Both the position numbers and the translations under genes were made by a program. Source: Beijerinckia indica subsp. indica ATCC 9039 (GTDB lineage: Bacteria > Pseudomonadota > Alphaproteobacteria > Rhizobiales > Beijerinckiaceae). Taken from it: DNA of 64,000 bases. Numbering within the stretch: the stretch's first letter is position 1; every line of letters starts with the position of its first letter. The notes beneath the pieces are model-generated. The model saw only the letters and a program-made list of their open reading frames with translations, did no database searches and had not been told where the DNA came from. Shown here piece by piece: positions 9,385-64,000 of this stretch. The stretch is from NCBI RefSeq assembly GCF_000019845.1, contig NC_010581.1, forward strand, positions 3,348,501 through 3,412,500. Reading direction: 5' to 3'.

Positions 9385-9900
9385 ATGACAAAGCCGATCC
9401 TCAATATCGCCGACGTCGACCTCCAACCCCGGCCGCCGCAATACGCCCCGACTGGCGCGGCAGCAGAAATCATCGACGCAAGGGTCGCTTTCGTGTCCCG
9501 GCAGTTCGGCACGAGCAAGCTCGCTTACAACGTGACCGCGATACCGCCCGGCAAGCGCGCCTTCCCGTTCCACAATCATCAAACCAATGACGAAATGTTC
9601 TTGATCCTGTCAGGCAACGGGGAAATCCGGATCGGCCAAGACAGCCATGCCATCCGGCCTGGGGATATCATCTCCTGCCCGGCCGGCGGGCCAGAGACGG
9701 CACACCAGATGGTCAACACCGGATCGGAAGAACTACGCTTTCTTGCCGTAAGTTCGATGTATTCGCCCGATATCGTCGAATATCCCGACAGTGGCCGTTT
9801 CGGCATTCTTGCCGATTTCGCGCCCACACCGGATGGTCAGCCACGAAGGCTGATGTATGTCGGGCGCGAGAATGATAGCTTACCCTATTGGGACAGCTGA
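9385..9900 (+). CDS. Cupin-domain protein
   Basis: 171 residues with one cupin barrel: PFHNHQTNDEMFLILSGNGE (motif 1, with His-x-His and Glu metal ligands) and a second His in GPETAHQMVNTG. The function may be metal-dependent isomerase, dioxygenase or sensor; the sequence does not say which. Start at the ATG of MTKPILNIAD (9385), with GAGAG just upstream; an earlier ATG at 9346 lies in the regulator-cupin intergenic region. The next gene (MGMT) begins about 35-50 bases downstream, so co-transcription is likely. Confidence 0.85.
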   Translation: MTKPILNIADVDLQPRPPQYAPTGAAAEIIDARVAFVSRQFGTSKLAYNVTAIPPGKRAFPFHNHQTNDEMFLILSGNGEIRIGQDSHAIRPGDIISCPAGGPETAHQMVNTGSEELRFLAVSSMYSPDIVEYPDSGRFGILADFAPTPDGQPRRLMYVGRENDSLPYWDS

Positions 9901-14834: not shown

Positions 14835-15251
14835 TCATAAACTTTGGCACCAAATTCTTATCGCGACGAGTTTGATAGCGGCGAGGAAGTTGGCGGGGTC
14901 TTTGTCGTAGCGTGTTGCGATGCCGCGGAACTGCTTGATCCGGTTAAAGAACCGTTCCACGAGGTTGCGTTGCCGATAGACCCAACGCGAGAAGGAGAAG
15001 CTCCCCTTGCGATTGTCTTTTGGTGGGATGTTGGCCCAGGCTTTCCGCTCCGCCGCCTTGGCTCGGATAGCGTTGCTATCATAACCCTTGTCGGCCAGCA
15101 GGATGTCTCCTTCGCCGAGACCATCGGTCAACGCATCGGCTTCGGTGCAGTCCGCGACCTGACCGCCGGTTAAGCGGAGGGTGACGGGGCGCCCTTCGGC
15201 ATCGACGAGAGCATGGATTTTGCTGGTGAGCCCGCCGCGGGAACGTCCCAT
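14835..15251 (-). CDS. IS427-type transposase, OrfB (DDE domain)
   Basis: 138 residues from MGRSRGGLTSKIHALVD to WCQSL. It carries the second Asp (LLADKGYDSNAIR) and the Glu (RQRNLVERFFNRIKQFR) of the DDE catalytic triad. The frame is open upstream through KKGDGDDGG, consistent with production as an OrfAB fusion by -1 frameshifting rather than from its own start. Confidence 0.9.
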   Translation of the reverse strand: MGRSRGGLTSKIHALVDAEGRPVTLRLTGGQVADCTEADALTDGLGEGDILLADKGYDSNAIRAKAAERKAWANIPPKDNRKGSFSFSRWVYRQRNLVERFFNRIKQFRGIATRYDKDPANFLAAIKLVAIRIWCQSL

Positions 15252-18593: not shown

Positions 18594-18773
18594 GCAGGCC
18601 CGACGCGCAAATCAAAACGACTCAACCGATCCTTGCATCCCGCGCTTTCAAGAACCGTATCCTATTGATGATACGTGTTTCTTTATTTCCGCACCTTGCC
18701 GATGAGACTTGATCGCCTCCCAAACTCTGAGCGGATTCCACGGCGCGTGGCTCTTTCGAGATGGAGAATGACA

Positions 18774-19014
18774 ATGGCCTATCAGACCATTAATCCCTAT
18801 ACGGGCGAAACCGTCGCCACCTTTCCCGACGCCACGGACGCGGATGTTCGCATCGCGCTCGACAAGGCCCAGGCAGCCTTTCTACGCTGGAAGGAAACCG
18901 GTTTCGCTGACCGCGGCCGCATCCTACAGAAGGCGGCTGATCTGCTGCGCGCCAATGCCGATGGCTATGCCAGGCTGCTCACGCTTGAAATGGGCAAGCT
19001 CTTCGCGGAGGCCC
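18774..19014 (+). pseudogene. 5' fragment of a succinate-semialdehyde dehydrogenase-like gene
   Basis: Encodes about 80 N-terminal residues of an NAD(P)-dependent aldehyde dehydrogenase (MAYQTINPYTGETVATFPD, RGRILQKAADLLRA, LTLEMGKLFAEA), closest by eye to GabD-type enzymes. Homology ends at about 19014, where sequence from an SpvB-like gene in the opposite orientation begins. The catalytic domain is missing, so the product is inactive. Confidence 0.8.
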
Positions 19015-19359
19015 CTTGTCGGTCTTGCGCGTGATCGCGGGCAGCGAGAGCCTCCAGCCAAAGCCGAAGGGGCCGTTCCCCGCGCCGGAATCATAGGCAA
19101 GCGAGAGATTGGGACCGAAGCCGGAGCGCCCCCGGCTAGTGGTGATGGGCACTGCCATCCATCCCGTGCCGGCGACGGGATTGGCAGAGAATTTCTCGCC
19201 CATGCCACGAATGGCGCCGCCGCCCTTGGGCAGATTGACAACCGGTAGAGGGGACTCACGCGTAGACGCCGGCGCCGACGATGCACTGGCTGGCCCTTCC
19301 CGAGCCTGCCCCTCGCCTCCCCCCGTCCGACCGATCAAGACACCGTCCCATCGGCGCAA
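19005..19359 (-). pseudogene. 5' fragment of an SpvB/TcaC-like toxin gene
   Basis: Reverse-strand frame contains LPKGGGAIRGMGEKFSANP, then GRSGFGPNLSLAYDSGAGN and FGFGWRLSLPAITRKTDKG, the highly conserved start of the Salmonella SpvB / insecticidal Tc-toxin B-component family. It ends within 5 residues of KTDKG at the junction with the aldehyde dehydrogenase fragment. A full member would be over 1000 residues. It marks the former presence of a Tc/SpvB-type toxin locus. Confidence 0.75.
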
Positions 19360-31537: not shown

Positions 31538-31966
31538 ATGACGCGCCGCCGCTACGAACTCACCGACCATGAATGGTGGATCCTGTCGCCTCTATTGCCC
31601 AACAAACCGCGTGGCGTTGCTCGCGTCGATGATCGGCGGGTGCTGAATGGCATTCTTTGGCGGTTCCGAACGGGCTCGCCTTGGGCAGAGATTCCAGAGC
31701 GCTACGGCCCACCGACCACTTGCTACAACCGCTTTGTGCGGTGGCGGAAAGCCGGGGTCTGGGATCGGCTTCTCGACGCGGTTTCAGAGGCTTACGACGG
31801 TGACATCGTCATGATTGACTCGACCTGTGTTCGCGTTCACCAGCACGCGGCTACGGGAAAAAAGGGGATGGAGACGATGGCGGCATGGGACGTTCCCGCG
31901 GCGGGCTCACCAGCAAAATCCATGCTCTCGTCGATGCCGAAGGGCGCCCCGTCACCCTCCGCTTAA
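31538..31966 (+). CDS. IS427-type transposase, OrfA
   Basis: 142 residues, identical in sequence to the OrfA of the copy at 14825-15670. The slippery heptamer A-AAA-AAG at 31858-31864 allows a -1 shift into the downstream frame, which from that point reads KKGDGDDGGMGRSRGG and continues as OrfB. Confidence 0.92.
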   Translation: MTRRRYELTDHEWWILSPLLPNKPRGVARVDDRRVLNGILWRFRTGSPWAEIPERYGPPTTCYNRFVRWRKAGVWDRLLDAVSEAYDGDIVMIDSTCVRVHQHAATGKKGMETMAAWDVPAAGSPAKSMLSSMPKGAPSPSA

Positions 31967-32301
31967 CCGGCGGTCAGGTCGCGGACTGCACCGAAGCCGA
32001 TGCGTTGACCGATGGTCTCGGCGAAGGAGACATCCTGCTGGCCGACAAGGGTTATGATAGCAACGCTATCCGAGCCAAGGCGGCGGAGCGGAAAGCCTGG
32101 GCCAACATCCCACCAAAAGACAATCGCAAGGGGAGCTTCTCCTTCTCGCGTTGGGTCTATCGGCAACGCAACCTCGTGGAACGGTTCTTTAACCGGATCA
32201 AGCAGTTCCGCGGCATCGCAACACGCTACGACAAAGACCCCGCCAACTTCCTCGCCGCTATCAAACTCGTCGCGATAAGAATTTGGTGCCAAAGTTTATG
32301 A
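31885..32301 (+). CDS. IS427-type transposase, OrfB (DDE domain)
   Basis: 138 residues, identical to OrfB of copy 1, with the second catalytic Asp in LLADKGYDS and the Glu in NLVERFFNRIKQ. Expected to be made mainly as an OrfAB fusion through the -1 frameshift. Confidence 0.9.
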   Translation: MGRSRGGLTSKIHALVDAEGRPVTLRLTGGQVADCTEADALTDGLGEGDILLADKGYDSNAIRAKAAERKAWANIPPKDNRKGSFSFSRWVYRQRNLVERFFNRIKQFRGIATRYDKDPANFLAAIKLVAIRIWCQSL

Positions 32302-55975: not shown

Positions 55976-56129
55976 GATCATAGATCAGCTTGCGGTTGCA
56001 CGGGGGCGGAAGCTTCCGAAAGAACTCGAGAACCTGTGAGCGACGCGCAACAACGGCACCGGCTTCGTCGATCGCATGAACCTAAGAAATGGACTTCGCT
56101 AAATCCAGACCAATTGTTGCTACGGGCAT
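55976..56129 (-). pseudogene. IS110-family transposase 5' remnant
   Basis: About 50 codons: MPVATIGLDLAKS, stop, VHAIDEAGAVVARR, SQVLEFFRKLPP. This is the RuvC-like start of IS110 transposases, with the first catalytic Asp (GLDLAK). The F-Q preceding VHA is replaced by Ser-stop, an amber codon, and homology ends near 55976. Confidence 0.8.
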
Positions 56130-57463
56130 CGAATGATCCTTTTCTGCTGTCGCGGCTGATAGCAATGCTAAACGCCACAGGTTCCAGATCAATCGACCGT
56201 TTCAACACATCACTTTGCGTGCTTATGACATATATTCCAATCGGAAGAAGGTCTTGAAACTATAAATAAATATGCTGCTGGTCTTCGCTCATTTTCCGTC
56301 GAAACATAAATAAAATAGGATCGGTCATTTCCGATATGACGCCGCATTTTTTAGCACGCAAAGTGAGACAGACCCTCACTTACAACAGTCCGACAACCTG
56401 CTCTCTGTCTGTTTCTGACCTCTATTGGTTAACAAAGCATAACAATCACAGTCTCAAACGTCTTCCTGTATCCGTATACATAATTTGCAACGCACCCGCG
56501 CACGGTGATGATTGGAAAAGGATCAATGCTTCTCCGGCTCTTGAACACTTTCTCCACCAAGAGCCCAAGCGGGCGATATCAACGTGAGCCATGCGTCATG
56601 GAGGATCGCGGCGGCGAGAGTGGGTGGGAAGGTGCTGGCCTCGCCGAACACCACAGATTGCCAACGGTTGAGAGCATCCGCCTGGTCGTTGTCGATCGCG
56701 GGCAAGGGCATTCTCGCCTTGATATGATCGAGCCTGTGTGTGGAGCGTTGCAGCACGGCATCGAGGGCCGCAAGAGCCGTGTGCCATTCGTCTTCGGCCC
56801 CAGGACCCGCATCCTGTTCTTCCAGGCCCTCTTCAGCTTGAAAGGATCGGGCCAGCTCGCCTTTCGTTTTGGATTGCCAACGATTTGACGGGCCTCCTCG
56901 GCTTCTCCGTGCAAGCATAATTGCATAGCTACGTTCCTTACCAGCGACGGGTCGTTGTAGATTTACCTGTTTGATCCAGCTCCGGACTAATAGCGAAACG
57001 TCAGGAAGCGAACTTTCCGAGGTTGGGAATGGACCGACATCAACTGTCCGAAACAAGGCAATCGAACACCCACCCTTTTCATGACCCTTCCCATTGCCGC
57101 CGTTTGAGCAGCACGGGCGGAGATTTCCCGGCCAAATAGGGGAGGATCGAGAGGCGAAGCACAAACCTACCCGCACGATTATTATAGTGCTTTGGCGGAC
57201 TGGATCGCGCTTCCGGCCGGGCGGGTGGTTACGGGGAGGCGCAGCATTCGATCCTTACGATTGGGCGAGCGGGCTATTCCCCGACTGGCAGCATTGTAAA
57301 GCCGCCGCCGCCCTCCGAGGGATAATCGCCCTTACACGCGCTCTCAGCGGCTGCCGGCAGCCACTACCATTGCGTCTGCCCTTTATTGCGCATGAACTGT
57401 CTTGATTCCGGACACTATCGAGTTATTTGATCATGGATAGGAAAGGCACGGTTGTAGAGTTCT
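56130..57463. other. Long intergenic region upstream of the histidine kinase gene
   Basis: About 1.3 kb with no intact gene. Its left part (56230-56500) is AT-rich. A reverse-strand frame at 56523-56890 is listed separately. The forward frame 57094-57405 resembles nothing. No clear promoter for the kinase could be fixed. Confidence 0.4.
56523..56890 (-). pseudogene. Possible fragment of a rhizobial DUF1612-like protein
   Basis: The reverse frame reads HTALAALDAVLQRSTHRLDH, ADALNRWQSVVFGEASTFPPTLAAAILHDAWLTL. The pattern of a Trp-containing helix followed by (L/F)PP-LAAA-hx-DAW resembles the DUF1612/HTH-type proteins common on rhizobial plasmids. The match is short and by eye; the gene would be truncated at both ends. 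Confidence 0.25.
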
Positions 57464-58936
57464 ATGGTTCGATCGCTACGAGGCCGCCTCATTATTCTGC
57501 TCTTCTTGCTGGTTGCCGCCGCGGGAGCAGCCGGCGGGCTCATGGTCGGCCTGTTCAGGCAGTCGGCGACAGCCCAGGCTGGCCAAGCTGAAGCGGAAAT
57601 CGGCCGCGCCTGCGACGCGATTGGTAATGCGTACCGCTTCTACAGCAGCGGCTGGCACGGGCCGCCTGCTGGGGTCAACGACGATGTCTTACGTCAAGGT
57701 CTGACCACGGTCGTGCAAACAGCGCTTCGGGATCGGCCAGGCATCGAAGGGGGGATTTGGCAGAGCGATGCCGGCTCTCTCGCCTACGCATTCCCAACCT
57801 ACCAAGGATCAGGTCCTAAAACCGATGTGCCTCAAGCGGAGCTTCCCCACATTCAAGCCGTCAATCAAGCAGCGCTAGCTGCGGGCGATCGGCAGGCGGT
57901 CAGCCGTTACGACGCATCGTCGCAGATCTTGCTCTTGACCGCGTGCCCGCTGCCCGGACCGATCCCAAGCTTGACGGCGTGGACCATGACACGCGTTGTG
58001 ACGCTCGCTGGGAGCGGTTATCGCCTGCTGATGATGGGTCTTAGTGTCTTGTTCGCTGCCGTGCTCGCAGCGGCGGTTCTGCTGACTCGGCTCACGATGA
58101 CTTGGTCGAGGCATGTTGCGCGCATCGAGACCGCGCTCCAGGCCCACGACATCGCCGAACTGCCCACATTGCCTCCGACGGGCGAGCGCGAACTCGATCG
58201 CATCGTCATGGCGCTGAACGATGCGGGACAGCGACTTGCTGAAGCTAGACGCCGAGCCGATCAACTAGCACGACAGGTCGAGACTGGAGAACGCCTGGCG
58301 GCGATCGGACGCGTCGCCGCTGGCGTGGCACATGAGATTCGAAATCCGATCGCCGCCATGAGGCTCAAGGCAGAGAACGCCATGGCTGGCGATTCGGAGC
58401 GCAAGAACCTGGCTCTCACCATGATGCTCGGGCAAATCGAACGGCTCGATGCGCTGGTCCGCCGTCTTCTTAGCGTGACTGAACGAGAGACGCTCAATCG
58501 CGCTCCCGTCGCCCTGAAGCCCTTTCTCGAATCCTGCCTGTCGACGCATCTCGAACTCGCTCGATCGAAGGCCATTGCGCTGGACTGCGCGGCCGACAGT
58601 GAGGAGCCGAGCTTCGATTCCGATCAAATGAGGCGTGCGCTCGATAACCTCGTTCTCAACGCCATCGAAGCGGCACCTGCGGAGACAGCCATTGTTATCG
58701 CCGCACGACATGACCATGAGAATCTCGTCGTCTCGGTTTGCGATGGAGGTTCAGGACCGCCGGCGGAAATCCGGGATCATCTGTTCGAGCCATTCGTCAC
58801 CAGCCGCGCTGATGGAACCGGACTTGGTTTGTCGATCGTGCGCGAAGTTGCGGCCGCGCATGGCGGGATCGCACGCCTGAGTTGTTCTCGGACAGGAACA
58901 GTTTTTGAGATCGTGGTGCCATGGCGTCTATCCTAA
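57464..58936 (+). CDS. Membrane sensor histidine kinase
   Basis: 490 residues. Membrane helices near 8-30 and 186-208 enclose a ~155-residue periplasmic sensor with no recognised domain. A HAMP-like linker follows, then HisKA with phospho-acceptor His-290 (GVAHEIRNPIAAMRL), and the ATPase with N box DNLVLNAIEAAP, G1 VCDGGSG and G2 GTGLGLSIVREVAAAHGG. It would phosphorylate the response regulator whose gene overlaps its last 16 bases. NtrB/AtoS/ZraS-type systems are organised this way. Confidence 0.93.
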   Translation: MVRSLRGRLIILLFLLVAAAGAAGGLMVGLFRQSATAQAGQAEAEIGRACDAIGNAYRFYSSGWHGPPAGVNDDVLRQGLTTVVQTALRDRPGIEGGIWQSDAGSLAYAFPTYQGSGPKTDVPQAELPHIQAVNQAALAAGDRQAVSRYDASSQILLLTACPLPGPIPSLTAWTMTRVVTLAGSGYRLLMMGLSVLFAAVLAAAVLLTRLTMTWSRHVARIETALQAHDIAELPTLPPTGERELDRIVMALNDAGQRLAEARRRADQLARQVETGERLAAIGRVAAGVAHEIRNPIAAMRLKAENAMAGDSERKNLALTMMLGQIERLDALVRRLLSVTERETLNRAPVALKPFLESCLSTHLELARSKAIALDCAADSEEPSFDSDQMRRALDNLVLNAIEAAPAETAIVIAARHDHENLVVSVCDGGSGPPAEIRDHLFEPFVTSRADGTGLGLSIVREVAAAHGGIARLSCSRTGTVFEIVVPWRLS

Positions 58937-60303
58937 TTGTCGATGATGATGATGCGATGCGTGACGCGCTGAGCGAAGCTGCGCGCGATCTCGGCTATGA
59001 TGCACACTTGGCGGCGTCGGGAGCGGAGGCGATAAGCCTCCTCCATGCGCAGGCGATCGACGCCGCGCTGCTCGATCTTCGCATGCCCGGCATGGAAGGG
59101 ATCGAGGTTCTGAAGCGTCTCCGCGCGCTCCCAAATCCGCCTCCCGTGACGGTATTGACCGCCCACGCGACTGCCGCGAACACGATCGAAGCGATGCGGC
59201 TCGGCGCGTTCGATCATCTGACGAAGCCAATCGGACGAGAGGAAGTGTCGCGCATATTGGCGGGAATGCTTGCGGCTAGAGCGGCGCCACGTGCATTCCG
59301 GTCGGAGCCAGAACCAGGCGGGTTGATCGGGTCGAGCGAGCCGATGCGAACCGTCCAGAAGACCATCGGCATGCTCGCCGACAGCAATGCGACCGTGCTC
59401 ATCTCAGGTGAGACGGGGACCGGCAAGGAGCTGGTGGCGCGTGCCATTCACGAGCACGGCCATCGGAGCAGCAGGCCGTTCATTCCCGTCAATTGCGCCG
59501 CGATTCCGGCCGAGCTCATGGAGAGCGAGCTGTTCGGTCATGTCCGCGGCGCGTTTACGGGCGCCGTAACCGATCGGAAAGGCGCGTTTCGCGAAGCCGA
59601 GCGGGGTACTCTGTTTCTCGACGAGATCGGCGACATGGAAATTGCCCTGCAAGCGAAGATCTTGCGGGCGCTACAGGAGCGTGTTGTTACACCCGTCGGC
59701 GGCAAGGCCATTCCCGTCGATGTTCGCGTGATCGCAGCGACCCATCGGGATCTAAAGCAGCGCGTGCGAGATGGCAGTTTCAGGGAGGATTTGTTCTATC
59801 GGTTGCACGTCGTGCCGATCCATTTGCCAGCTCTACGAGAGCGCATCGCCGACATCGTTCCTCTCGCCGAGTATTTCTTGGCGCGCGCCGGCGGCGCCAA
59901 GCAACTTGCGCCGGAGGCCGCGGCGCGGCTCGTCCGCCATGCCTGGCCCGGAAATGTGCGCGAATTGAAGAATGCGATGGAGCGCGCTGCGGCGCTAGTG
60001 CGCAGTGATGCGGTCAACTCCGTCGATCTCGACTTTATCGATGAGACTCGCTCGGCAACCGATCGAGCAATTGATTGGCCGGATGAAGATCTGCCGTCGG
60101 CCACCTCTCGGCTCGAGGAGATGCTGATTCGCCGCGCTCTAGCAAGGAGTGAAGGCAATCGGGCGGAAGCGGCGCGCCTGCTCGGCATCCACCGGCAGCT
60201 TCTCTATACGAAGATGAAGCGCTATGGCCTCGACGCGTCCGAAGACCGGACGCAACGTGTCGGGGAAGCGGACATTCCGACGGGCCAGCCGTCTAAAAAA
60301 TAA
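58921..60303 (+). CDS. NtrC-type sigma-54 response regulator
   Basis: 460 residues. Receiver domain (IVDDDDAMR, phosphorylation site Asp-52 in ALLDLRMPGMEG, Lys in HLTKP), AAA+ domain with Walker A GETGTGKE, the sigma-54 contact loop GAFTGA (in GHVRGAFTGAVTD), LFLDEIGDM, and a Fis-type HTH at the end (RAEAARLLGIHRQLLYTKMKRYGL). It activates sigma-54 promoters; one lies 25 bases downstream of its own gene. Confidence 0.95.
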   Translation: MASILIVDDDDAMRDALSEAARDLGYDAHLAASGAEAISLLHAQAIDAALLDLRMPGMEGIEVLKRLRALPNPPPVTVLTAHATAANTIEAMRLGAFDHLTKPIGREEVSRILAGMLAARAAPRAFRSEPEPGGLIGSSEPMRTVQKTIGMLADSNATVLISGETGTGKELVARAIHEHGHRSSRPFIPVNCAAIPAELMESELFGHVRGAFTGAVTDRKGAFREAERGTLFLDEIGDMEIALQAKILRALQERVVTPVGGKAIPVDVRVIAATHRDLKQRVRDGSFREDLFYRLHVVPIHLPALRERIADIVPLAEYFLARAGGAKQLAPEAAARLVRHAWPGNVRELKNAMERAAALVRSDAVNSVDLDFIDETRSATDRAIDWPDEDLPSATSRLEEMLIRRALARSEGNRAEAARLLGIHRQLLYTKMKRYGLDASEDRTQRVGEADIPTGQPSKK

Positions 60304-60327
60304 CAATAACTTCAATAGCATAATCAC

Positions 60328-60342
60328 TGGCGCACGGCTTGC
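60328..60342 (+). promoter_or_regulatory. Sigma-54 promoter
   Basis: TGGCGCACGGCTTGC: GG at -24 and GC at -12 with the invariant 10-base separation, close to TGGCACG-N4-TTGC. It lies between the NtrC-type gene and the first paralogue (start 60382), so the downstream operon is the likely direct target of the two-component system. Confidence 0.8.
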
Positions 60343-60381
60343 CCTTCATCCTTCAGGCAGTGCTCTTGAGGAATGAATCAC

Positions 60382-61176
60382 ATGCGACCCCCAGTGGAAG
60401 GCCGTCTTCGTCGGTGGATCGACCCTATTGGCGCTGAGCGCCAACGCGCTTGCGCAGAATCAGGCGCAGCCGTTTGCAAATCAACTGCCCCCGCCTGCCG
60501 GGCAAGCGCCGCTCTATGACCCACAACAGCTTCCGGCTCAACGCGGGCAAGTCCAGCAGTTCACGTTGACGCCGCGCGGCGACATAGACGGGCTGATCCT
60601 GACCGACGGCACCGAGGTCAAGACCCCTCCGCACCTCTCGACTCAGATCGCCTATGCGATCAAGCCGGGGGACATTGTTACGATCACGGACTGCATGCCG
60701 CGGCATTGCCGCTGGTGCAGGCTGTCTCCATCACGAACGACGCGACCGGGCGGAAAGTCATCGACAATGGACCGCCTGGACCTGGTCGCGGACCTGCCGC
60801 ACCGCCACCGCCGGTCGCTTTCGCTCCGGGCGCGGACGGACCGCTTCCCAGGCGCACAGAATTGCAAAGCCGCGTGCGGATTGCACTGCACGGCCCACGG
60901 GGCGACATCAACGGCGCACTACTGGACGACGGTACGATTCTGCTCCTGCCGCCGTCGGAGGCCTATCGCTTTGCGAGCTTACTGCAGCCGGGACAGCCAC
61001 TCGTCGCCGAAGGCACGGCAACTGTCACCGCGCTCGGCAAGGTTATTGAGGCGCAGCAGATCGGCGCGTCGCGTGACCAATTGAGCCTCGTCGAAACGGT
61101 ACCCCGTCCAAGTCCGGGACGGCGCCCGCCGGCGCCTATTCCTGGCTTCGAACCGCCAGGGGCGCCACGCCCCTAG
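60382..61176 (+). pseudogene. Exported paralogue A of unknown family (two frameshifts)
   Basis: Read with two one-base corrections this is a single protein of about 264 residues: signal peptide MRPQWKAVFVGGSTLLALSA ending ALAQ, then two related modules, FTLTPRGDIDGLILTDGTEV and RIALHGPRGDINGALLDDGT, the second followed by LLQPGQPLVAEGTATVTALG. The frame breaks in a C5 run near 60390 (one C too many) and near 60687 (one C too few). Family unrecognised; it is homologous to the gene at 61231. Could be a sequencing artefact rather than a dead gene. Confidence 0.7.
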
Positions 61177-61230
61177 GCAATTGGCTTCGCGCAACAGCTT
61201 TCGATTCCCGACCTGGAAAAGAGACACGAC

Positions 61231-61878
61231 ATGCACTGGCTTGACCCCGATTATTTGCCCGAAGTCTTGGGCACTTTTGAACGCTTCCTCCTCAATCCGC
61301 ATGGCGACGCTGACGGGATGATTCTGAGTGAGGGGCTGGAGATCCATTTCCCACCGCACATGTCGGTCGAGCTTTGCGCCACGATTCGTTCAAGCGAGAC
61401 GCCGAAGATCAAGGTTCGCGGTGTGTGGCCACGTGGCGGCGCGGTGATCGTGGCCGTGGCGATCGAAACGATGGACGGCAAGCGTATCGTCGATAATGGA
61501 CCGCCGAAAGAGCACGACGAGCACGAGAAGCCGGATGGGCGCGCGACGAAATCCAAGCATGAGCCCATGCACGCCGAAGGCATAGTGCGGCGTGTTCTCC
61601 ATGGTCCGAAGGGCGAAGCGCGCGGCGCGCTGCTCGAAGACGGAAGGATCATCTGCGTCCCCGCGAAAGAGGCCAAGCACATCGCGCAGTTTCTCTCGCG
61701 GGGGCAGCGGTTGGCGGCGCGCGGTCAGGGACTGACATCGGAATTCGGCACCGTCATCGACGCGCGAGAGGTTGGTCCCTCCGCAGACGACCTGCATCCG
61801 CTGAAGCCCAAAGAACCCAAGCCCCAGAAGCACCCTCGAAAGGGTGACGCCGAGGTGAATGCCGCGACGGCTGTCTGA
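61231..61878 (+). CDS. Paralogue B of unknown family (no signal peptide)
   Basis: 215 residues, two modules: FLLNPHGDADGMILSEGLEIHFPPHMS (residues about 18-45) and VLHGPKGEARGALLEDGRIICVPAKEA (about 120-147), each followed by a strand-rich segment (GQRLAARGQGLTSEFGTVIDAREVG). Between them lies IETMDGKRIVDNGPP, which is also in paralogue A. The repeated G-D/E-x-x-G-hh-L-x-D/E-G pattern suggests small beta-barrels (OB-like), an inference. The end is Lys/Pro-rich. It follows paralogue A by 54 bases. Confidence 0.8.
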   Translation: MHWLDPDYLPEVLGTFERFLLNPHGDADGMILSEGLEIHFPPHMSVELCATIRSSETPKIKVRGVWPRGGAVIVAVAIETMDGKRIVDNGPPKEHDEHEKPDGRATKSKHEPMHAEGIVRRVLHGPKGEARGALLEDGRIICVPAKEAKHIAQFLSRGQRLAARGQGLTSEFGTVIDAREVGPSADDLHPLKPKEPKPQKHPRKGDAEVNAATAV

Positions 61879-61941
61879 GCTGCCCCCGGGGAGGCCGTCG
61901 TCCAGTCGGTCTCCCTCCATTTTGTCGCGATGGAGACGACG

Positions 61942-62265
61942 ATGCCGGACACAAAGACCGTCCTGAGCTGGGTGCATTTCGGCAAACGGATTGCACTCGC
62001 CCCTGATCCGAACGATCCCTCACCCTGGCAAACGATCAAAGATATCCGCACGTTGTCCGACGGGCGCCATGCGCTCATGGTCGAGGCGCGCGAGAGCGCT
62101 GGCGACACCGGGCATGACACGATCACCGTTTGCGTAGCCCGGAACGGACGCTACATGCCGTCGCCGATAGGCGACGGTAGCGATCGCGACACCGTCGGCG
62201 CTTGGCCAGAAAAGAGCATCCTCGGCACCCAACTCGGCCCCAAGCGCAATGGACGCAAGTGGTGA
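61942..62265 (+). CDS. Small protein of unknown function
   Basis: 107 residues from ATG 61942 (MPDTKTVLSWVHFGKRIALAPDP), with GGAG 7 bases upstream. No domain recognised; it contains DGRHALMVEARESAG and RNGRYMPSPIGDG, and ends KRNGRKW. Its stop overlaps the start of the transporter gene (GTGA), so it is translationally coupled to it. Confidence 0.7.
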   Translation: MPDTKTVLSWVHFGKRIALAPDPNDPSPWQTIKDIRTLSDGRHALMVEARESAGDTGHDTITVCVARNGRYMPSPIGDGSDRDTVGAWPEKSILGTQLGPKRNGRKW

Positions 62266-63506
62266 GCGCGCTTGCGGCAACATGGGGCATCGTAGCCCTG
62301 GCAACGGGGGGCGTGATCCTACGTCCTTGGCGTCTGCCGGAAGCCATTTGGGCGGTGACTGGCGCCGCGATTCTAGTCCTTGCCGGCCTGCTCTCGCTCG
62401 CCGACGCGTGGCGCGGTGTGCTGAAAGGAACGGATGTCTACCTCTTCCTGATCGGCATGATGCTGCTTGCGGAGGTCGCGCGACGAGAAGGTTTGTTCGA
62501 CTGGCTGGCGGCTCGCGCCGCCAATCTGGCGAATGGCTCTGCAACGCGGCTGTTCACGTTGGTTTATGTGGTTGGAACCGTCGTAACGACGTTTATGTCG
62601 AACGACGCGACGGCTGTCGTTCTGACGCCAGCGGTTGCAGCGGTCGCGCGTGCCGCGAAGGCCGAGAAGCCGCTCCCCTATTTGCTCATCTGTGCGTTCA
62701 TCGCAAACGCGGCCTCCTTCGTCCTGCCGATAAGCAATCCCGCCAATCTGGTGATCTATGGCAGTCATACGCCGTCCTTGCTCGAATGGCTGCCGCGCTA
62801 TGCTGCGCCGTCGCTGCTGTCGATCGCTGCAACTTATGTGGTGCTCCGCCTGACGCAGCGCCGAATGCTGAACCAAACGATTGCCGCAGAAGTCGAAGTC
62901 CCCGCGCTATCGCTTTCCGGACGCGCGGCAGGAATCGGTATCGTCGTCACAGCCGTCGTCTTGATGATGGCTTCGGCGTTGGGCTGGCAACTGGGGTTGC
63001 CGACCTGCATCGCCGGCCTCGCGACTGCGGCGTCGGTTGTGCTGCTCGAACGCCGTGCCCCGTGGGACATCCTGCGCGATATCTCTTGGGGCGTACTGCC
63101 GCTGGTGGCTGGCCTCTTCGTGCTAGTCGAAGCGCTGGATCGCACCGGCGTGATCGGGCTCTTAAGTACCGCCCTGCGTGCCGGTGCGTCCTGGTCACTA
63201 CTGGACACCGCCTGGGCCAACGGCGTCGTCATCGCCTTCGCCTCGAATATCATGAACAATCTGCCCGCTGGATTGATCGCGGGAACGGCAATCCAAGGGG
63301 CTCAGAGCCCTCCACTGGTAACCGGCGCTGCGCTCATTGGCGTCGATCTAGGACCAAATCTCAGTGTTACGGGCTCGCTCCTCTGGCTCGCGGCGCTGCG
63401 CCGCGAGGGTCTCCGGGTGAGCGGGATGTCGTTCCTTAAGATCGGCTTGCTGGTGATGCCACCGGCTTTGGTGCTGGCGATCGCCGCGCTGGTTCTTGGC
63501 GGCTGA
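62262..63506 (+). CDS. ArsB/NhaD-type membrane ion transporter
   Basis: About 414 residues and 11-12 membrane helices of the ion-transporter superfamily that includes ArsB and NhaD: FLIGMMLLAEVARREGLFDWLA, TTFMSNDATAVVLTPAVAA (the conserved N-D-A motif), LPISNPANLVIYG, and the matching second-half motif SNIMNNLPAGLIAG. Candidate substrates are arsenite or another oxyanion, or Na+. GTG start at 62262 overlaps the preceding stop. No arsR or arsC is nearby, so arsenite is only one option. Confidence 0.9.
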   Translation: MSALAATWGIVALATGGVILRPWRLPEAIWAVTGAAILVLAGLLSLADAWRGVLKGTDVYLFLIGMMLLAEVARREGLFDWLAARAANLANGSATRLFTLVYVVGTVVTTFMSNDATAVVLTPAVAAVARAAKAEKPLPYLLICAFIANAASFVLPISNPANLVIYGSHTPSLLEWLPRYAAPSLLSIAATYVVLRLTQRRMLNQTIAAEVEVPALSLSGRAAGIGIVVTAVVLMMASALGWQLGLPTCIAGLATAASVVLLERRAPWDILRDISWGVLPLVAGLFVLVEALDRTGVIGLLSTALRAGASWSLLDTAWANGVVIAFASNIMNNLPAGLIAGTAIQGAQSPPLVTGAALIGVDLGPNLSVTGSLLWLAALRREGLRVSGMSFLKIGLLVMPPALVLAIAALVLGG

Positions 63507-63533
63507 TCCGTGCACCATTCTCGGAGAGAACCG

Positions 63534-63978
63534 ATGGATTCCGCCTGGCTCTATCCTCTCATTCTTGCGGCCGGAGCGTTGCAGGCGTGGGGACCGCCAA
63601 TGAACGGCGCTCTGCGCATCGCGTTGACGAATCCTTGGCTTGCCAGCCTGGTCTCATTCTTACAGATCGTGGCCCTCTTGATCGTGGTCTTCGTCTGCAT
63701 GCCGCGACCGCTGCCGACCATCGAAGGACTGACCGTGATGCATTGGTGGTCGCCTCACGGCGGGCTGATCGGCGCCTTTGCCGTCGTTGCGGGCTTGCTG
63801 TTCGTCGATCGCGTGGGCGCAGGCGCCTTCGCCGATCTCACGATTACGGCGAACATTGATGTCGCTGGCCATCGAGCACTTCGGTTTGCTGCGCATGGAG
63901 GTGCATTCCGTGAACCTCGGGTGCCCGATCGGGGCAGCGCTCATAGTGGCGGGAATTGCCCTGATCTCCTGGTTCTGA
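63534..63978 (+). pseudogene. YdcZ/DUF606-type DMT membrane protein, frameshifted
   Basis: Start MDSAWLYPLILAAGALQAWG at 63534. Reading continues through LVSFLQIVALLIVVFVCMP and GGLIGAFAVVAGLLFVDRVGAGAFADLTITANI, then one extra base near 63860 breaks the frame; the next frame continues MSLAIEHFGLLRMEVHSVNLG and IGAALIVAGIALISWF to a stop at 63978. Corrected, it is a typical ~148-residue five-helix DUF606 protein. Such proteins usually come in pairs, and a second ATG at 63993 may start the partner. Confidence 0.75.
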
Positions 63979-64000
63979 GGATCGCTCGTCATGGATGACA

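Follow-up and report, generated by a model that had tools for sequence, protein, structure and literature searches.

Among described control systems, the closest to the subject of this report is ZraSR (HydHG), an NtrC-type kinase/regulator pair of the envelope-stress response which acts on a sigma-54 promoter with an enhancer and has an exported accessory protein, ZraP, as its target. A second point of comparison is the YgiW/SipA (BOF-domain) family, whose members adopt an OB-fold. Two reports describe an exported, periplasmic OB-fold protein which is controlled by a two-component system and binds antimicrobial peptides (PMC6370654, PMC5636140). The locus analysed here occupies positions 57464-63978 of a 64,000-nucleotide stretch of Beijerinckia indica subsp. 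indica ATCC 9039 (contig NC_010581.1 of assembly GCF_000019845.1, forward-strand positions 3,348,501-3,412,500), which is called the window in the following and to which coordinates refer; the bases directly past the window end read N. The locus comprises a membrane histidine kinase, an NtrC-type activator and, behind a -24/-12 promoter, genes for two paralogous proteins (P1 and P2), a metallophosphoesterase (MPE) remnant, a permease and a YdcZ-type protein. By sequence comparison, it probably represents one copy of a horizontally moving, signal-induced sigma-54 efflux regulon of the general ZraSR kind. The regulatory logic of this putative regulon appears well supported; efflux of a small toxic solute is its likeliest job, a statement we make with moderate to low confidence.

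With ZraSR-ZraP the locus shares the NtrC-type pair, the sigma-54 promoter with an enhancer and, among its targets, an exported accessory protein. In contrast, its kinase scores 146.3 bits against a cut-off of 479 for the NCBIfam ZraS model and its regulator 353 against 760 for ZraR, the accessory protein is a predicted double OB-fold, and exporters as well as an MPE appear as further targets. YgiW/SipA is likewise an exported protein under two-component control, with an OB-fold of the kind predicted for the local family, whereas here a Pfam BOF match is absent at E <= 0.1, two OB modules are predicted, a paralogue without signal peptide occurs as partner and the regulator of the main group is of the NtrC type. 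A wholly new type of system was considered and rejected since every control part is a standard NtrC/sigma-54 part. Judged by titles and the openings of abstracts, the open-licence PMC literature yielded no description of the gene set, the fold family or the enhancer.

Kinase, activator and putative double enhancer

The kinase gene (57464-58936, plus strand) and the activator gene (58921-60303, plus strand) are both intact and overlap by 16 bases. This arrangement had been claimed in an earlier note on the window, and open reading frame (ORF) coordinates, Pfam domains and motifs agree in bearing it out. The kinase contains HisKA and HATPase domains, the activator receiver, sigma-54 and Fis domains, and the motifs HEIRN, DLRMPG, GETGTGKE, GAFTGA and LDEIGD are present in the pair. 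The features which mark a regulator as NtrC-type, namely a receiver, an AAA+ domain with GAFTGA, a Fis-type helix-turn-helix and an adjoining partner kinase, are thus all found, and RpoN is encoded in this genome. Residues 30 to 180, approximately, of the kinase are predicted by modelling to form an extracytoplasmic PAS/Cache sensor, and the modelled domain resembles those of CitA and DcuS.

The -24/-12 site that the same note had placed after the activator was confirmed by pattern match as TGGCGC-ACGGC-TTGC at 60328-60342 (plus strand). A putative double palindromic enhancer of the form YGTC-N9-GACR, N5, YGTC-N9-GACR, situated within the 3' end of the activator gene (60236-60274, no strand assigned), is new here and had been overlooked. 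When gapped palindromes were counted in 17 promoter-upstream regions, motifs common to nine of them were obtained, compared to at most five in 30 shuffles. In its general form (YGTC-N9-GACR, N3-5, YGTC-N9-GACR) the enhancer was found 28 times in the window and 55 loci taken together, and every one of these places lies, according to the gene maps, upstream of a paralogue, MPE or major facilitator superfamily (MFS) gene; four altered patterns gave no match in the same sequences. Two loci have a pair of enhancers, of which the first lies at the paralogue promoter; the other belongs to the MFS promoter in L095 and to the MPE promoter in L016.

The spacing of enhancer and promoter was analysed for 29 sites (the 28 and one in L106), the -24/-12 element being scored over 11 bases. 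An element matching at least eight of them follows the enhancer in 28 of the 29 sites, with a gap of either 51-53 bp (25 sites) or 63 bp (three sites), the latter corresponding to about one additional helical turn. At least 9/11 is reached by 24 of the 29 real sites; among shuffled 150-mers, 15% reach 8 and 1.6% reach 9. As to the promoter alone, the strict pattern TGGCAC-N5-TTGCW, which is too strict for the local site, has no match in this genome and two in the backwards control. The pattern TGGCAY-N5-TTGC has 18 matches in 1.30 Mb of strand (36 loci plus the window), 15 of them immediately before a paralogue gene or, in the case of L016, an MPE gene, and three elsewhere.

Within this genome the enhancer with a five-base spacer is found at a single exact place, with no second one at one mismatch, and the version with a four-base spacer at one-mismatch places alone (five, compared to two in the control). 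The combined pattern of enhancer and promoter gave five matches in eight activator genomes, all at target promoters, and none in the control; genomes G181, G243, G261 and G423 were missed by it. The enhancer rule proved predictive in that an unlinked operon of a different genome was located with its help. In G285, a second enhancer, on a contig without the kinase, precedes an MPE-MFS-permease-YdcZ operon running away from the site, with CGGCATACGACTTGC located 52 bp from the enhancer. A paralogue in L029 has an enhancer (9753-9790 of that locus) and a -24/-12 element (at 9854), and no activator gene was found within 6 kb; it is possibly controlled from elsewhere.

Recurrence of the gene set

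The paralogue loci number 49 and consist of 34 from a scan of genome contigs, one (L040) from the same-family genome G013, eight from a phylum sample and six plasmid regions. Locus statistics refer to those 45 in which the sequence before the first paralogue extends over at least 1.5 kb, an activator being counted at an identity of at least 50% within 6 kb and an MFS gene at one of at least 35% within 8 kb. On this basis the activator is present in 26 of the 45 loci, all 26 of which also contain the kinase. An MFS gene is found near 21 of these 26, compared to two of the 19 others. The presence of permease, MPE and YdcZ is variable. Of 398 evenly sampled genomes of the phylum, nine match the paralogue profile (E <= 1e-8), seven have an activator orthologue and six have both, which corresponds to a hypergeometric value of 1.1e-10 if genomes are treated as independent, though some are related. 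In six further genomes the activator finds matches with 57-65% identity; those next in score have 46% and the rest of those listed 40-48%.

The paralogue genomes in which the activator is lacking are three members of a single genus, and the sole activator genome without paralogue, G181, contains kinase, activator, MPE, permease and two YdcZ genes. Among this genome and 40 relatives, P2 matches occur in two of 41, namely in this genome and in G013, where kinase, activator, paralogue, MFS, MPE, permease and a doubled YdcZ stand in one run. The ORF adjoining the G013 copy is integrase-like, as judged from its sequence and not from a family search. In changed order, the gene set is found again in many soil bacteria, among Alpha- as well as Betaproteobacteria; Bradyrhizobium barranii CC829 and Methylocystis sp. 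MJC1 are examples with a fuller copy than the local one. On plasmid pSBC2-3 of Caballeronia sp. SBC2, the kinase-activator pair and two hypothetical genes, which are paralogues, are divergent from genes annotated as metallophosphoesterase, MFS and "arsenic transporter". Related sets also reside on a Bradyrhizobium plasmid typed as mobilizable and on an Acidiphilium plasmid typed as conjugative; further plasmid-borne copies were typed as non-mobilizable. Just downstream of the regulon on a Bradyrhizobium plasmid lies an annotated nhaA (L094:10954-12294). In the three small genomes of the single genus mentioned above (G077, G399 and G331; loci L060-L062), a lone exported-looking paralogue, lacking two-component pair and enhancer, adjoins what look like ATP synthase genes.

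Several data weigh against the proposed sigma-54 regulon. The local -24/-12 element matches only 9 of 11 bases, with a G where most relatives, being closer to consensus at the same place, have an A. In G181 the enhancer (locus L093) precedes the MPE gene, yet no -24/-12 element is recognisable (6/11). The enhancer pattern is present in 22 of the 26 activator-bearing loci and without a match in L014, L057, L058 and L059. Searched for by itself with the five-base spacer, the enhancer is found in 14 of the 398 genomes, 11 without and three, among them G285, with an activator orthologue, and its backwards control occurs in more (47 by our count of the table); hence, the enhancer alone is not specific across genomes. 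Finally, 19 of the 45 paralogue loci lack this activator and G181 lacks the paralogue, which makes the paralogue pair a frequent and not an obligatory output. Co-occurrence, proposed in the earlier note as a check, largely supports its interpretation, kinase, regulator and paralogues standing together in 26 of the 45 loci and the paralogue family being present in six of the seven activator genomes. The regulon appears broader than the note had suggested, with paralogues, MPE, MFS exporter, permease and YdcZ in varying subsets. The note's idea of a sigma-54 switch tied to paralogues and transporters likewise stands as far as co-occurrence and the conserved promoter and enhancer are concerned, though not with respect to an obligatory pair, and three of the local outputs are broken.

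The paralogue pair

In relatives, P1 is an exported member of the predicted double-OB family. In the window its gene (60382-61176, plus strand) is frame-broken twice, as the part encoding the signal peptide does not share the frame of the ATG at 60382 and a second frame change occurs near 60690. The intact relative P0126 (264 residues) aligns as two adjacent pieces, residues 4-101 with 89% and residues 102-264 with 83% identity, and the best intact copy among the 120 best listed of 302 matches shows 85% identity over 83% of the query. Due to both frame changes, P1 is here not an intact exported protein. In contrast, P2 (61231-61878, plus strand) is an intact open frame with no signal peptide seen, and its two modules carry the repeated motif G-D-x-x-G-hh-L-x-D-G. 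The exported/non-exported pair of the earlier note thus survives with respect to P2 and is lost with respect to P1. In protein P0008, encoded on a contig of 4437 bases, the start of P1 is fused to P2, as if recombination between the paralogues had deleted the middle.

That the two-module family lacks a name was found to be correct. No Pfam or NCBIfam family matches P2 at E <= 0.1, and at the same threshold no Pfam family, BOF included, matches either P2 or the P1 pieces. A search for solved structures by sequence match was negative for P2, the A2 profile and intact MPE. The profile and structure predictions suggested at the outset accordingly gave no Pfam family; by modelling, the paralogues are predicted to be double OB-folds. 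The BOF structure was not among the fold lists, a circumstance which carries no evidential weight.

A far-reaching proposal, which we regard as unlikely, is that of an undescribed mobile stress cassette. Double-OB proteins, one exported and one cytosolic, would bind the same toxic small molecule outside and inside the membrane and thereby act as its buffer while tuning the kinase, and co-induced MPE and exporters would clear it. If this is true, the doubled YGTC-N9-GACR, with a distance of 52 or 63 bp to the -24 element, would offer a signature for finding members of the regulon in any genome.

Alternatively, the exported OB protein could itself be the main effector of an envelope-stress chaperone system like ZraPSR or YgiW/SipA, binding a harmful periplasmic peptide or metal and damping the kinase, with the transporters being secondary. 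Exported P1 indeed adjoins the activator in many loci, and binding of antimicrobial peptides is described, in the two reports cited above, for an OB-fold protein under comparable control. Chryseobacterium loci fit as well. There, two paralogues are followed by a response regulator, an OmpR-type regulator and a kinase being confirmed by Pfam in L036, and no MFS, permease, MPE or YdcZ gene was found; the second paralogue has, by our reading, a lipoprotein-like start. These loci indicate that the paralogues can be linked with two-component systems of more than one regulator type. (In L032, a paralogue-MFS-permease-YdcZ set stands beside a divergent OmpR-type regulator instead.) However, in G181 kinase, activator and transporters persist although a paralogue is lacking, MFS genes accompany most activator-bearing loci, the same enhancer is found at unlinked transporter operons, and P2 has no signal peptide. 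We therefore consider the chaperone explanation improbable.

Metallophosphoesterase and transporters

The 111-residue ORF at 61930-62265 (plus strand) had been described as a small coupled protein. This identification was rejected, as full-length relatives show it to be a truncated calcineurin-like MPE. It matches just the end of proteins of 368-382 residues plus the tip of their start (LSWVHFG), so that the metal-binding middle is missing. Intact relatives carry a Metallophos domain and resemble the cyclic-nucleotide phosphodiesterases SpdA/CpdA in giving weak matches to the respective models. They differ in remaining at 25-43 bits, compared to equivalog cut-offs of 400 and 225, and in exceeding the model lengths of 264 and 275, quite apart from the gutted state of the gene in the window. 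A different short form of MPE (P0124, 181 residues) is present in another contig, and loss of the middle may thus have occurred more than once.

The permease (62262-63506, plus strand) is intact. As the earlier note had stated, its possible GTG start at 62262 overlaps the stop of the preceding gene; by family it is CitMHS/ArsB-type. The protein exceeds the Pfam cut-offs of both CitMHS and ArsB, with CitMHS scoring higher, whereas it reaches only 174.4 bits compared to the NCBIfam ArsB subfamily cut-off of 457. The last gene (63534-63978, plus strand) encodes a DMT_YdcZ (DUF606) small exporter. Its family had been recognised correctly, while a frame change near 63855, across which a relative aligns in two pieces, had been missed. 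The MFS protein of related loci matches efflux and multidrug models, below their cut-offs. Ion export, as originally suggested, is no more than a candidate role given the higher CitMHS score of the permease and the MFS exporter being the commonest partner.

Mechanically chosen neighbouring ORFs were clustered for 35 loci. The clusters common to at least three loci comprise cassette genes, an OmpR-type regulator, a further MFS family and a probable antisense artefact; by eye, neither a recurring catabolic gene nor an arsenic-detoxification gene was recognised among them, the latter being a further difference to ArsB systems. The former bears on a possible role in which a usable organic acid is taken up or exchanged, with the Cache-type kinase sensing a carboxylate and the CitMHS-type permease importing it. 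The likeness of the sensor model to CitA and DcuS, the top score of CitMHS and aromatic-degradation genes downstream of the Caballeronia SBC2 copy speak for such a role. With no catabolic gene recurring and the MFS protein resembling exporters, even if below cut-off, we regard it as quite unlikely.

State of the local copy

Three of the five output genes are broken, P1 by two frame changes, MPE by loss of its middle and YdcZ by one frame change, and the local output is consequently reduced. Kinase, activator, enhancer, promoter, P2 and permease are intact. The exact MPE remnant is present in a protein collection as P0121, which represents 12 contigs, and the C-terminal piece of P1 as a 104-residue protein (P0153), which represents seven, the origin of the contigs not being shown in either case. 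Because of these recurrences, the data favour true decay in the species over assembly error, i.e. a local copy which keeps its control parts and is eroding. It is conceivable, if rather less than even in our estimation, that the locus is a dying remnant without present function or, conversely, that it is whole and the breaks stem from errors of assembly. The number of broken genes agrees with either, and the recurring remnants with decay. Yet full decay would not predict so many intact parts, and independent assembly of the breaks is not proven by contigs of this kind.

In line with a horizontal origin, the GC content amounts to 62.6% at the locus, while the first 57000 positions of the window have 55.9%. 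When an RNA element was sought in window positions 56000-64000, none of the Rfam families matched at its gathering score. Elsewhere in the window, two ORFs (14835-15251, minus strand, and 31885-32301, plus strand), presumably transposases by their sequence type, agree in start, end and length, and an insertion element is thus probably present twice. The ORF at 18675-19034 resembles, by eye, the start of an aldehyde dehydrogenase alone, which suggests that the window contains more broken genes.

Conclusions

In the efflux regulon that we favour, the membrane kinase would read a small-molecule or envelope signal via its PAS/Cache domain and, as its domains imply, phosphorylate the activator. The latter would bind the double enhancer, whose centre lies some 74 bp before the -24 element, and start transcription with sigma-54 polymerase, as conservation and geometry of the element suggest. 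The variable output would comprise one or two predicted double-OB proteins (exported P1, P2 without signal peptide), an MPE which presumably bears a distant resemblance to cyclic-nucleotide phosphodiesterases and, on the transport side, an MFS exporter, a CitMHS/ArsB-type permease and YdcZ. The OB proteins might conceivably be ligand-binding or feedback accessories of the export of a toxic solute.

The damaged copy in B. indica is a warning against reading the window as a working system. For the family as a whole, a regulon that recurs can now be named together with its control element and probable members, and a first predicted fold is available for a protein family without Pfam or NCBIfam name. 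Signal and substrate thereby become testable with reporters in those relatives which have intact copies.

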